Positions 10,216 through 18,803 of a stretch of DNA of 43,607 bases are shown one piece after another. Position numbers and translations under genes: made by a program. Within the stretch, counting starts at the first letter, position 1; every line of letters begins with the position of its first letter. The notes below the pieces were generated by a model. That model made no database searches. It saw only the letters and a list, made by a program, of their open reading frames with translations, and had not been told where the DNA came from. This DNA comes from a virus, in the IMG/VR virus record IMGVR_UViG_3300034119_000305, positions 1 through 43,607 of that record; one strand, 5' to 3'.

Positions 10216-11133
10216 TTAAGCGATTAACAATTCCAACCGAAGTAACGATTGGAGTAGTGAGTCAGCGACAGGAATGCCGTGACCAAATCTAGGATCGAAA
10301 CCTGGTGCTCCAGAGTCCTTTAGGTTCGCCTTAAAAAAATCATTGACGCTTTTCGCTGCCGTCCATTGCGGCTTGCCTTGGCGTCGCATGACTTCGACGA
10401 TGCACGCAAGCAGACCTGAACCGAAAGGAGTTGCCATGCTTGTGCCGCTCATCGAAGTGTAGCCACTTCCGTTTTTTGAAAACGAGATAATGTCTTGACC
10501 TGGACACGCCCAGTCAATCTCTCGTCCACCAGAAGAGAAGTTTGCTATCTGTCCGCTTGCTTGGTACGCACCACAGCAGATGCAACCTTCGTATTTTCCA
10601 GGCCACCCGATCGTATTCGCACCGTTGTAGCCAGCATTCCCAGCCGCAGCGTTGACAATACAACCTTTGGAAAATGCATAATCAATAGCCTGGTTTGTCG
10701 CAGCATCAGATCCACCACCACCCAGAGAAAGGCTGATGATATCGGCACCCTCGTCAGCAGCCCAGCGAATGCCGTTAGCGATACCAACAGATGACCCGCT
10801 ACCTTGATCCGAAAGACATTTAAAGACAATCAGATCCGCATCAGGAGCCACACCGATTCCGTTGCGTCCCAATGCCGTTCCAGCACAATGAGTGCCGTGT
10901 CCGTTGCCGTCACGAAGTGCAGACTGACCAGAGATGAACGACTTCGACGCAATCGGTTCAGGACCGTCTACGTGTTTTGTGTAGCCAGTATCGCCGATCG
11001 CAACCTTAATTCCTTTTCCAGTTGCAATCGACTTGACTTTTTCCGCAAGTTCAGATGGCCAGTGCCATAGCCTGGGAGCCATAGCATAGAGATCATTATT
11101 GTAGACGGTATCAGGTGGGATCGTGTAATCCAC
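10216..11133 (-). CDS. subtilisin-like serine protease (S8 family)
   Basis: A 305-residue subtilase with the full catalytic set: Asp48 in AIGDTGY, His79 in GNGHGTHCAGTA, the oxyanion Asn166 in NAAAGNAG and Ser232 in SMSGTSMATPF. It has no obvious signal peptide or I9-type propeptide, unlike most secreted subtilases, and its N-terminal 40 residues are short. The start is taken as GTG 11133, which overlaps the upstream stop (TAGTG) and has GAGG 6 bases before it; TTG 11157 is possible. It is followed by a group of exported or membrane proteins. It may cleave virion proteins, or act in place of a muralytic endolysin on a protein-rich host wall. Confidence 0.85.
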   Translation of the reverse strand: MDYTIPPDTVYNNDLYAMAPRLWHWPSELAEKVKSIATGKGIKVAIGDTGYTKHVDGPEPIASKSFISGQSALRDGNGHGTHCAGTALGRNGIGVAPDADLIVFKCLSDQGSGSSVGIANGIRWAADEGADIISLSLGGGGSDAATNQAIDYAFSKGCIVNAAAGNAGYNGANTIGWPGKYEGCICCGAYQASGQIANFSSGGREIDWACPGQDIISFSKNGSGYTSMSGTSMATPFGSGLLACIVEVMRRQGKPQWTAAKSVNDFFKANLKDSGAPGFDPRFGHGIPVADSLLQSLLRLELLIA

Positions 11134-11450
11134 TAGCCACCTCGACGAGCTAACCAAAGCTCAATCAATTTCAGAACAATCGGAATCAACAGCGAAGGAT
11201 CGATTGCTGTCGCTTGCGGATCTTCTGTCGTGATTGCATCGAGTGCATGAATGCATCCGCTGATCGTAGACGGCAACTCGTCTTCCGCACCTAGCGAGAT
11301 AACGAAACCAGTTTTTAAGAGTGCTCCGATCTCACCCGAGATAGCACCAACCAGCAAAAGATTGTCGCCGCGATCAAAATCTCCAGAGCGAAGATTCTTT
11401 ACCAACTGCAACACATGGTTGACTGGCAACCGTGCTTCGAAATCGTACAT
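11133..11450 (-). CDS. hypothetical protein, 105 aa
   Basis: A 105-residue protein (begins MYDFEARLPV) with a Gly/Leu-rich central stretch (LLLVGAISGEIGALLKTG) and a C-terminal amphipathic helix LIPIVLKLIELWLARRGG. GGAG is 8 bases before the ATG. It directly precedes the subtilase with a one-base stop/start overlap, so the two are translationally coupled. It could be a partner or inhibitor of the protease, or a small membrane-active protein; the sequence does not decide. Confidence 0.5.
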   Translation of the reverse strand: MYDFEARLPVNHVLQLVKNLRSGDFDRGDNLLLVGAISGEIGALLKTGFVISLGAEDELPSTISGCIHALDAITTEDPQATAIDPSLLIPIVLKLIELWLARRGG

Positions 11451-14286: not shown

Positions 14287-14375
14287 AGCGTTTTACGTCC
14301 CGTTTCAAGACGCACCGACGCCCTCGGATGTTTTGATAACCTGCGACGCGCAGGTTAATAAATTGTTCGTCGGAC
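14287..14375. repeat. attC-like repeat, copy 1
   Basis: An 89-base sequence about 92% identical to copy 2 at 15016-15105. It contains the inverted repeat AACCTGCG-ACG-CGCAGGTT. In the coding direction it lies at the 3' end of the 124-residue gene, which reads through it. The CCTAAC box of the other copies is changed to CGAAC here. A structured site at the end of each small gene is the arrangement of integron gene cassettes. Confidence 0.6.
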
Positions 14376-15015: not shown

Positions 15016-15105
15016 AGCGTTTTGCGTCCCGTTTCAAGACGCACCGACGCCATCGGATGTTTTGCATAACCTGCGCCGCGCAGGTTAATAAATTGTTAGG
15101 TGGAC
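15016..15105. repeat. attC-like repeat, copy 2
   Basis: A 90-base intergenic repeat directly after the stop of the cytosine methyltransferase. Read in the gene direction it starts with the box ACCTAAC (pattern RYYYAAC), then has the perfect inverted repeat AACCTGCGC-G-GCGCAGGTT, a GTTATGC box, and a second stem TGCGTC...GACGCA. It has no T-tract, which argues against a simple terminator. Copies 1 and 3 share it. Confidence 0.65.
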
Positions 15106-16029
15106 CTACGCCACGTTCTCTAACGCCGCTACGATGCAGCGTCCGATGTATTCTGCGACTTGTGGCACGACTGCGTTGCCGAGTCCTCTAATTCTGTCCA
15201 CCCGCTTGGGAACCCCATTAGCCACTCGACCCACTGAGGGTTCAGTAATCCACCACTCGCTTCTGCTAGGCTTGGGCCAGCAGACCTGCCTCGCTCCGCC
15301 TGCGTCTTTCCCTTGCCGCTCTTGTAATCCCTTGATGTGGGTGTTGGCCACATCGTTGGATTCGGGAACATTTCCTTTCCCCTTACGACCTGATCCCGCA
15401 AGTTGGCAAAATTGGTTCGCCCTTTCCTGGTTACAGTTCTTTCTTTCTCGATTGCCTTGTCTGTCTTTGGAGCCATACTGTCCATCGTCGTTGGAGTAGC
15501 CCAAAATGAAAACCCTGTCCCTGACATGCGGGGCACCAAAAGACGCAGCCGGTATGCAATGCCATTCCGCATCGTACCCGATCGAGGCCAGCGACCCGAG
15601 AACTTCATCCATCCCCCGAGTAAGCAGAGCTGCGACGTTCTCCAGAACAACGATTCTTGGTCCCATGTCGCCAACAATGCGGCAGACTTCAAAAAAGAGT
15701 CCGCTTCGCTCCCCTTGTAGTCCCGCTCCTTTTCCAGCGTAGGAAATATCTTGGCATGGGAAACCACCGGCGATGATGTCAACGTATTCGGTGTCTGGTT
15801 GTGGCCATGTTCTAACATCGTCATGTCTCCTTACTTCCGGCCAATGCTTGGCCAAAACCTTTTGCGAGTATGGTTCTATTTCTACTTGCCATTTGCATCG
15901 TAAACCCGCTCTCTCGAATCCAAGATCGATACCACCGATACCAGCGAATAGCGATCCAAACGTAAGAGGTGCGGCCACAGAACAAAGCGTTGTTCCGAAG
16001 TCCTCGACGGCGGTTTTTTGAATATTCAT
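15106..16029 (-). CDS. DNA cytosine-5 methyltransferase
   Basis: A 307-residue C5 methyltransferase with the expected motifs in order: motif I FGSLFAGIGGIDLGFE (residues 24-39), motif IV GGFPCQDIS with catalytic Cys92, motif VI ENV (130-132), motif VIII RDRV (170-173) and motif X RGLGNAVVPQVAE (about 281-293). It transfers a methyl group from SAM to carbon 5 of cytosine; the variable region between residues 180 and 260 should set the target. No restriction enzyme gene is adjacent, so protection from host restriction is likely. AAAGGA precedes ATG 16029. Most of its 3' two-thirds overlaps a second conserved frame (see 15129-15818). Confidence 0.9.
   Translation of the reverse strand: MNIQKTAVEDFGTTLCSVAAPLTFGSLFAGIGGIDLGFERAGLRCKWQVEIEPYSQKVLAKHWPEVRRHDDVRTWPQPDTEYVDIIAGGFPCQDISYAGKGAGLQGERSGLFFEVCRIVGDMGPRIVVLENVAALLTRGMDEVLGSLASIGYDAEWHCIPAASFGAPHVRDRVFILGYSNDDGQYGSKDRQGNRERKNCNQERANQFCQLAGSGRKGKGNVPESNDVANTHIKGLQERQGKDAGGARQVCWPKPSRSEWWITEPSVGRVANGVPKRVDRIRGLGNAVVPQVAEYIGRCIVAALENVA
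15129..15818 (-). CDS. overprinted protein inside the methyltransferase gene
   Basis: A 229-residue frame lies in the +1 frame of the methyltransferase gene on the same strand. It contains segments that I recognise from phage methyltransferase-associated proteins: LFWRTSQLCLLGGWMKFSG, WPRSGTMRNGIAYRL, WPTPTSRDYKSG, GPSLAEASGG and LNPQWVEWLMGFPSGWTEL. AAGGAG stands 8 bases before ATG 15818, inside the methyltransferase coding sequence, so internal initiation is plausible. Its end overlaps the DNA that encodes methyltransferase motif X. It may be a real overlapping gene whose product works with the enzyme; expression is not proved. Confidence 0.55.
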   Translation of the reverse strand: MLEHGHNQTPNTLTSSPVVSHAKIFPTLEKERDYKGSEADSFLKSAALLATWDQESLFWRTSQLCLLGGWMKFSGRWPRSGTMRNGIAYRLRLLVPRMSGTGFSFWATPTTMDSMAPKTDKAIEKERTVTRKGRTNFANLRDQVVRGKEMFPNPTMWPTPTSRDYKSGKGKTQAERGRSAGPSLAEASGGLLNPQWVEWLMGFPSGWTELEDSATQSCHKSQNTSDAAS

Positions 16030-16060: not shown

Positions 16061-16108
16061 CGTTTTGCATAACCTGCGCCGCGCAGGTTAATAACTTGTT
16101 AGGTGGAC
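16061..16108. repeat. attC-like repeat, copy 3 (short)
   Basis: A 48-base copy, one base different from the matching part of copy 2. It keeps the ACCTAAC box, the inverted repeat AACCTGCGC-G-GCGCAGGTT and the GTTATGC box but lacks the outer second stem. The TAA stop of the preceding gene is the TAA of its ACCTAAC box, as in many integron cassettes. Confidence 0.6.
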
Positions 16109-16506: not shown

Positions 16507-17196
16507 TCATGCTAACGTCTCATCATTTTGAACATCCCACGCTTCACTAAAGTCTCGGTCCTTGAACATCTCAGCGAGTCCGCTAATCTGAGCCAAACGA
16601 AGAACTTCATCGGCGTCCATACCTAGCTCTTTTCCGATCTTTTCATCAGACCAATTGCGTCGTTTTAGCTCTACAACGATCTCAGACATTGAATCGACCT
16701 TGTGTGCACCTCTAGCCCTGTTGTGTCTAATAGTTGCCGCCATTCGATCAGGCTTGTCTACTCGATCGCTTTTTATTCTGACTACCGGGAGGTAGCCTTG
16801 CACTCGATCCCGTACTAACTTGCTTTCTTTTCCAACTCGATTGCGATGGAACCCATCTACAACCTCGCTGCCAGAGCCAGTTGGCATCGTAACGATTGGT
16901 TGCGTGTAACCGTCTTGAAGTATGCTTAGTTCGAGCAACTTCATTTCTGTTGGTGCGACACTGTTTGGGTTGTAGTCGTTCGCGAAAACCGTAGTGTTCT
17001 TAACCCACAAAACACAATCAACAGGTTCACCAGAAAACGGGCTGACTTCATGCAACGCCGCCCTGATGATGTTCAGTGCAGAAACTCTATCGACTAACTG
17101 CATACAGGAAAGCTTTGCCACTAATGGAGCGATATCCGATTCTATTTTCTTCTCGAACTCATCGCCACCACCTTCGAATAGGTTAAGTTGATTCAT
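16507..17196 (-). CDS. ParB-like protein (IbrB-like)
   Basis: A 229-residue ParB/sulfiredoxin-fold protein. The core has LLELSILQDGYTQPIVTMP and VVDGFHRNRV, followed by a region with ATIRHNRARGAHKV and a helix-turn-helix-like helix RRNWSDEKIGKELGMDADEVLRL. This protein type is found beside IbrA-type PAPS-reductase-like enzymes, where it is called IbrB; the same order and a 14-base overlap are present here. Start at ATG 17196 is chosen for AGAGGA 6 bases upstream. It may bind nucleotide or DNA and act with its partner. Confidence 0.75.
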   Translation of the reverse strand: MNQLNLFEGGGDEFEKKIESDIAPLVAKLSCMQLVDRVSALNIIRAALHEVSPFSGEPVDCVLWVKNTTVFANDYNPNSVAPTEMKLLELSILQDGYTQPIVTMPTGSGSEVVDGFHRNRVGKESKLVRDRVQGYLPVVRIKSDRVDKPDRMAATIRHNRARGAHKVDSMSEIVVELKRRNWSDEKIGKELGMDADEVLRLAQISGLAEMFKDRDFSEAWDVQNDETLA

Positions 17197-18415
17197 TACC
17201 ATCCTCTTTGAATAGATTCCACTCAGCTCGTTTCTTACGCATGAGCTGTAGATATTTGTCGTATGCGTTGCTTTTGGTTGGGCTGAAACCTAGCGTCTTC
17301 AACCAGTAGTCATTCCTTAGCAGCGCTTTCGCAATGCGACGCCACGAGGGAACTAGATCTCTAGCCTCCAGGTCTTTATCCGCCGCGTCTGGTATCCCAT
17401 CTGGGTAGCCACGTTCCTTGTACCAAAAAATGTATTTGGCTAGCTTGTTCTTGTAGTGTTCTGCAGTCTTTGGCGGTATTGAACCGAGCAGGAATCGGCA
17501 AAACGATTCCCAGTTGTGACCGCTAGGAAGAGACACACTCCTGTTCCCAAGTATGTTTCCCGAATCCTCTCCATACATCCTGCCTGTGTTCGCTCCAGCG
17601 ACTCGGCAGGACATCTTCGCCCATAACTTTGGCTCGATGATTTGGTACATCCAAAGCCCTTTGCGTTGCGTGTCTCCGAAAGGTTCATCGATTCGCATTT
17701 GGTGCAAAGTCATCCCGGCTTTATGCATCAAGTCATATAGTTTGTTGTAGGACTTTCCGTACTTGCCGAGATACGTCCAATCGTCCTCAACAGTCCAATC
17801 GTAAATCGGATAAACGTTCCAGCATTCATCAACAACGTTAGTCGTGTACTGCCTGCCTTCTAAACCAATCTTGTCAGTCCTTGCTAGACTTCTAAATCTG
17901 TTTAGACTTTCCGCAGTTCTTATGCCTACAAAGCACGCGCAATCCTTTCCTGGCGAGTACCACTTAGCGAACAGTGGAGTAAATTCCTCAAACATCATCC
18001 CTTCCCAATAGAAAGGGAAAAACGAATTGTCTTTGATCGACATCGGGTGCTTGTCTCTAACCCAAATATCTTTCTTCGATTCATCCCACGCTGTCCATTC
18101 TGGCTCGTGCATAGAACATCCGTTCCATGTCTTCACAGGCAATGCCACCCAATACGGTTCGATGTTGTCTTTATACTCTTCGTACATTGCCGCAACGTGA
18201 TCTACAGTTAGGGAGAACTGGCACTCCCAATCAATAAACAAGCAACCTATTTTCCGACCACGCAACTTAGCTTCATCCATAACCAAGTGCATCATCACGG
18301 TAGAGTCTTTACCACCGGAAAACGAAATGTAAATCCGTTCGAACCTATCAAACGTCCATGCAATTCTCTCCTTTGCAGCATCAAGAACAGACTTACCCAA
18401 AAACCTTTTATGCAT
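17183..18415 (-). CDS. PAPS reductase-like protein (IbrA-like)
   Basis: A 410-residue PP-loop ATPase of the PAPS reductase/IbrA type. The nucleotide loop is SGGKDS at residues 33-38, followed by an FIDWECQF segment, GIRTAESLNR and, in the C-terminal half, a helical DUF3440-like region. Cysteines occur in CACFVGIR and elsewhere. PP-loop enzymes of this class include PAPS reductases and the DNA sulfur-modification protein DndC. Known IbrA proteins are coded on prophages with IbrB and affect expression of surface genes, but the reaction is unknown. ATG 18415 overlaps the preceding stop; TTG 18418 is the longer option. Confidence 0.8.
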   Translation of the reverse strand: MHKRFLGKSVLDAAKERIAWTFDRFERIYISFSGGKDSTVMMHLVMDEAKLRGRKIGCLFIDWECQFSLTVDHVAAMYEEYKDNIEPYWVALPVKTWNGCSMHEPEWTAWDESKKDIWVRDKHPMSIKDNSFFPFYWEGMMFEEFTPLFAKWYSPGKDCACFVGIRTAESLNRFRSLARTDKIGLEGRQYTTNVVDECWNVYPIYDWTVEDDWTYLGKYGKSYNKLYDLMHKAGMTLHQMRIDEPFGDTQRKGLWMYQIIEPKLWAKMSCRVAGANTGRMYGEDSGNILGNRSVSLPSGHNWESFCRFLLGSIPPKTAEHYKNKLAKYIFWYKERGYPDGIPDAADKDLEARDLVPSWRRIAKALLRNDYWLKTLGFSPTKSNAYDKYLQLMRKKRAEWNLFKEDGNEST

Positions 18416-18803
18416 CAAGCATCTCCCATTCTGTAATCACTGCGTCAGCAATATCATTTGCTAATTCTCTTTGACTTTCGGACAACTGCCACCAGGCTAA
18501 CCTAACGGCATCTTCTCTTGCTCCTGTAGCGACACAACAGCACGCACGACCCATCCAAGGCCTACGGTTTTTCGTGTTGTCTCGTAGGTTTTCTGCCGCC
18601 GCTATAGGCCAATCTTCAACGCATTTACGCATGGAGTCCAGGCACTTGTCGGGACAAGATAAGATTCCAACAGCCAAAGCTACCATTTGTGACAAAGATT
18701 CCTTTGGTGTCGGTTTATACATGCCAGCTAAAAAATCTTCCCATAACCAATACGGATAAAACTCTTGCCTCTTATCCTCCCAGAGTAGTTGCTGTTTTAG
18801 CAT
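18408..18803 (-). CDS. hypothetical protein next to IbrA-like gene, 131 aa
   Basis: A 131-residue protein rich in Trp and Cys (FYPYWLWEDFLAGMY near the start, RPWMGRACCCVATGAREDAVR in the second half, ITEWEMLDA at the end). It overlaps both neighbours (TAATG at its start, 8 bases at its end), which suggests joint translation with the IbrA-like gene. No family was recognised. A partner or substrate-binding subunit is possible. Confidence 0.55.
   Translation of the reverse strand: MLKQQLLWEDKRQEFYPYWLWEDFLAGMYKPTPKESLSQMVALAVGILSCPDKCLDSMRKCVEDWPIAAAENLRDNTKNRRPWMGRACCCVATGAREDAVRLAWWQLSESQRELANDIADAVITEWEMLDA

Follow-up and report, generated by a model that had tools for sequence, protein, structure and literature searches.

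A probable two-subunit C5-cytosine methyltransferase with one subunit nested out of frame inside the other in a viral genome

Results

Two reading frames share one methyltransferase locus

The window analyzed here is the whole 43,607-nucleotide stretch of viral DNA from IMG/VR record IMGVR_UViG_3300034119_000305. Two open reading frames, A and B, overlap on its minus strand (Table 1); as the earlier note on this DNA had stated, B lies in the +1 frame of A. Frame A contains the catalytic motifs of C5-cytosine DNA methyltransferases (PF00145), namely I, IV (PCQ), VI (ENV), VIII (RxR), and X. The earlier note had called this methyltransferase complete, which is incorrect: the Pfam match (2.3e-48) covers only residues 23-187, i.e., motifs I-VIII, and neither a motif IX nor a TRD could be recognized in A, where a stretch of ca. 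78 residues, referred to below as the linker, stands instead.

Frame B is open from ATG codons at 15824 and 15818, its 229 residues being counted from the latter, and the Shine-Dalgarno sequence described in the earlier note lies at the distance given there. An HMM search with B revealed a match to phrog_1008, a family labeled DNA methyltransferase, over most of the protein (residues 9-213, 4e-26), while searches of Pfam and NCBIfam returned none. The peptides from which the earlier note had recognized a protein family in this frame are present, and B does end inside the motif X region of A. What that note missed is that B, rather than being unrelated to A, is apparently the methyltransferase's own recognition half together with motif IX. 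The C-terminal block of B, LNPQWVEWLMGFPSGW, appears to behave as motif IX. The GNAV of motif X, in frame A, follows the start of this block by 65 nt, a spacing that is constant in most loci, and the order along the DNA (VIII in A, TRD-IX in B, X in A) is exactly that of a one-piece enzyme.

Table 1. Positions of frames A and B and of their motifs in the window
Feature	Position	Strand	Details
Frame A (alpha), C5-methyltransferase large domain	15106..16029	-	307 aa; motifs I-VIII and X
Frame B (beta), putative TRD and motif IX	15129..15818	-	229 aa; +1 frame of A
Shine-Dalgarno sequence AAGGAG	15827..15832	-	8 nt before the B ATG at 15816-15818; from sequence
A motif I	15931..15951	-	LFAGIGG
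A motif IV	15742..15765	-	GFPCQDIS; catalytic Cys92; P91, C92, and Q93 invariant
A motif VI	15622..15648	-	VLENVAALL; E130 and N131 invariant
A motif VIII	15502..15537	-	GAPHVRDRVFIL
A linker	15256..15489	-	A residues 181-258; occupied by the putative recognition region of B
B constrained core	15189..15644	-	B residues 59-210; constraint sets in around A motif VI
B motif IX-like block	15189..15245	-	LNPQWVEWLMGFPSGWTEL; from alignment; joined to X in relatives
A motif X	15142..15186	-	GLGNAVVPQVAEYIG; near-invariant

A 47-nt element with a palindrome (AACCTGCGC/GCGCAGGTT) occurs three times between genes, at 14329-14375, 15059-15105, and 16062-16108, and its copies bracket the A/B gene in a cassette-like manner. 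Homology to a near-identical contig, L006, begins at 16020, right at the start of A. Next to the methyltransferase, inspection of translations by eye revealed a ParB-like ORF (16507-17202) and a PAPS-reductase-like ORF (17183-18418; SGGKDSTVMMHL) whose end the former overlaps, the two resembling an IbrA/IbrB-type pair. The ORF at 10216-11157 contains, also by eye, the subtilisin-like serine protease motifs GHGTHCAG and SGTSMATP.

When the codons of A were shuffled synonymously, the +1 frame was never open over 229 codons in 1000 trials (mean 5.2 stops), in agreement with the earlier note's suggestion that B may not be a chance frame. Canonical one-piece enzymes also match the first half of the B profile weakly, and therefore A itself accounts in part for the openness of B and its resemblance to relatives over A motifs IV-VIII. 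An open +1 frame was rejected as proof of B on its own, since some canonical relatives also contain long +1 frames. A group of long A homologues (L258-L264 and L266-L268), some with a canonical in-frame motif IX, has the +1 frame open over about 140-240 codons; the similarity of these frames to the B profile is limited to its first half, and they are possibly an echo of conserved A codons, possibly a remnant.

The overlap is widespread among relatives

A tblastn search with B matched 125 phage records, whose annotation varies: the locus is given as a hypothetical protein, as a DNA methyltransferase, or, in Paenibacillus phage Bloom, with both frames annotated. A B-like ORF is present at 175 loci from viral contigs, phage records, plasmids, and bacterial genomes. 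At 165 of them, B was judged to be in +1 overlap with an A that carries motif X, and inspection added two more (L110 and L159), for a total of about 167. The remaining loci are staggered, with I-VIII in one ORF and TRD-IX-X in the other (L091, L093, L105), frameshifted (L026/L027/L042, L115), or cut by the end of a contig (L078). Phages of cyanobacteria, mycobacteria, Paenibacillus, and enterics share the +1 nesting, as do many bacterial genomes. In two bacterial copies (L215 and L244) a stop interrupts frame A and B is still open; these may be decaying prophage copies or sequencing errors.

Because the searches that yielded the 175 loci favor loci in which B peptides are conserved (WVEWLMG, for example), an unselected sample of genomes was added. 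The B profile matched 15 of 369 gammaproteobacterial genomes, in +1 overlap with A. The earlier note had named homologues with a broken B as the case that would speak against a conserved pair; such a break was seen in one weak homologue only (L209). With A as the query, all 26 homologues scoring at least 200 bits in 669 sampled genomes of two classes have B, and long one-piece enzymes make up most of the matches below 200 bits, some of these enzymes having a recognized in-frame motif IX. B start positions differ among relatives. Of 150 non-redundant loci, 77 have a Shine-Dalgarno sequence of at least 5 nt ahead of a B start, compared with 12-33 in background frames, a rough comparison made with windows of unequal length.

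The two frames are constrained in turn

Substitutions were sorted by their effect in both frames, giving dNN/dNS for B, which controls for A, and dNN/dSN for A. In the linker, six close pairs gave 0.145 for B (bootstrap 0.03-0.25) and 0.91 for A (0.24-1.55), with bootstraps taken over pairs and close pairs being few; over motifs IV-VIII, the values were 0.38 and 0.12, respectively. In a set of 21 pairs, B values were 0.62 over motifs IV-VIII, 0.56 in the linker, and 0.25 over IX-X, and those of A were 0.23, 0.80, and 0.62, the linker values being pulled towards 1 by unreliable alignments of distant pairs. Finer windows revealed that B is nearly unconstrained around A motif IV (0.81) and clearly constrained from near motif VI onwards (0.29), conservation in the first half of B having to be read with the echo from conserved A codons in mind. 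The first ca. 45 residues of B look nearly unconstrained and may be a leader sequence.

Since the constraint values of A and B alternate segment by segment, the two frames take turns under constraint, and the linker is near-neutral in A but conserved in B. The comparison of rates in both frames, which the earlier note had proposed as a check, thus reveals purifying selection on B after controlling for A. This selection, and the same +1 nesting across phages and many bacterial genomes, bear out that note's suggestion of a long-lived overprinted pair. Because the closest relative of the window, L006, is identical to it over the overlap, selection is demonstrated for the family rather than for the window's own lineage.

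In an AlphaFold2 model of A, the core (residues 23-190, pLDDT above 90) and the motif X segment are confident, and Foldseek matches the model to M.HhaI at 2e-17, the fold being that of the M.HhaI catalytic domain. Residues 210-279 have pLDDT below 50, a low confidence that is compatible with disorder and is no proof of it. The AlphaFold2 model of B, built from 39 relatives, was poor (pLDDT 58.7) and was left out of the evidence; a Foldseek search with it gave no meaningful match and no TRD fold.

Some relatives carry motifs IX and X in a single chain

In L253, from Bacilli, A ends after motif VIII and a single B ORF spans IX to X. Compared with Paenibacillus phage Bloom, this ORF shares 85% identity with B in its IX block and 55% identity with A in its X block; motif X can therefore pass from one subunit to the other by a frameshift between the two motifs. 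L252, L105, L091, and L093 likewise carry IX and X in B. A profile of the joined IX and X blocks reaches motifs IX-X of plant DRM only at E=0.3, and so the identity of motif IX is argued from position, pattern, and the chains that contain both motifs. Of 17 members, 7 reach PF00145 with the joined blocks and 4 with A alone, a difference that is suggestive only. Given the single IX-to-X ORF of L253, the most plausible interpretation is that A and B are parts of a single enzyme.

In Propionibacterium phage PFR1 (L092:1368-2531), which looks like a mosaic between the split and one-piece forms, the B frame ends halfway and the rest of the recognition region, IX, and X are in frame A. The PFR1 block LSARFVEWMMGLPDG lies inside a single PF00145 match that reaches profile position 312.

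Discussion

A two-subunit enzyme and its alternatives

Both frames are open, conserved, and constrained, the methyltransferase motifs are divided between them, and IX and X form one chain in relatives. We conclude that A and B very probably constitute a two-subunit C5-methyltransferase, in which beta, encoded out of frame within alpha, supplies motif IX and a putative TRD. Alpha would fold as the AdoMet-binding catalytic large domain, in which motif X, separated from motifs I-VIII by an unstructured spacer, would pack back onto the same domain. A separate ribosome-binding site within alpha would serve to initiate beta, which would provide the small domain, i.e., the target-recognition region and motif IX. 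Either subunit alone would be inactive, and the two together would methylate a specific site, most likely masking the phage genome from host restriction. Separate translation of B, its assembly with A, DNA recognition by B, and the anti-restriction role are what we infer from the arrangement of the locus.

It is improbable that A, with a short recognition region, is active as a methyltransferase by itself and that B is an unrelated overprinted protein, such as a regulator or a DNA-binding accessory. B lacks a Pfam or NCBIfam match and its model a fold match, which speaks for this reading, but the candidate recognition region of A is modeled with low confidence and is near-neutral, motif IX is absent from A and present in B at a constant distance from X, relatives have IX and X in one chain, and no close A homologue lacking B was found among the 26 scoring at least 200 bits in the 669 genomes.

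Programmed frameshifting that fuses the frames, from A into B after motif VIII and back into A before motif X, would account for the motif order exactly matching that of a one-piece enzyme. We consider it very improbable: it calls for two shifts, constraint on B (0.29) is already present over A motifs VI-VIII, a part that the frameshift product does not translate in frame B, and B has a Shine-Dalgarno sequence and ATG of its own in the window, a combination enriched in relatives. Finally, that B is a chance open frame echoing conserved A codons is scarcely credible, for although canonical one-piece relatives weakly match the first half of the B profile (16-51 bits) and can have the +1 frame open over 140-180 codons, they leave its second half, with motif IX, unmatched, B is strongly conserved in the linker where A is near-neutral, and dNN/dNS controls for A.

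A broader proposal, to which we give about even chances, concerns a large family of C5-methyltransferases from phages and prophages. Its members would carry the TRD and motif IX in a beta nested out of phase, and the corresponding alpha segment would be a neutrally drifting spacer, so that the frame of beta is free to diversify in recognition while that of alpha preserves catalysis; motif X would shift between subunits through single indels located between IX and X. If this is true, the TRD assignment of M.EcoHK31I would need revision. Annotations mostly give one frame, or count two methyltransferases, and thus many phage methyltransferases in databases are probably half-annotated; such enzymes, cloned as the annotated ORF, could test inactive. 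The A/B pair is also an unusually clean natural case of overlapping frames that share the selective load segment by segment, and could be used for testing ideas on the evolution of overlapping genes and the diversification of recognition domains.

Comparison with known systems

Among the papers searched, none described a phage methyltransferase pair in overlapping frames. The best reading, by analogy, is that the window pair belongs to a known kind of enzyme, that of M.EcoHK31I, and within it to a large phage branch that is under-annotated. The beta gene of M.EcoHK31I reportedly lies inside the alpha gene, in another frame (Lee et al. 1995). M.EcoHK31I, which recognizes YGGCCR, has motifs I-VIII and X in alpha and IX in beta, and a published prediction places its TRD in alpha (PMC3404938). 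The window pair shares this division of motifs and the reported nesting, a likeness judged from layout; it differs in being phage-borne and in that its TRD seems to lie in beta, because the alpha segment is near-neutral and modeled with low confidence while the beta segment is conserved. A plasmid search for M.EcoHK31I itself returned a one-piece enzyme only (E. coli plasmid match H129).

The ShiLan element likewise hides another protein, an HNH endonuclease, out of frame within a phage methylase (PMC11855218). That element is a mobile insertion and uses the third frame, whereas B is no insertion and looks like a part of the enzyme.

C5-methyltransferases fall naturally into a large domain (I-VIII, X) and a small domain (TRD, IX), and the halves of enzymes split between VIII and the TRD complement each other (PMC3404938, PMC5944983). 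The artificially split or circularly permuted M.SssI, M.MpeI, and M.HhaI are engineered and, unlike the window pair, involve no overlapping frames. M.AquI (CYCGRG) consists of two polypeptides, with I-VIII in alpha and IX-X in beta (PMC3404938), and so resembles the window pair in having I-VIII in one chain and IX in the other. In the window, however, motif X is in A and beta is fully nested; the M.AquI division, with X in beta, is the one seen in the relatives L252, L253, L105, L091, and L093.
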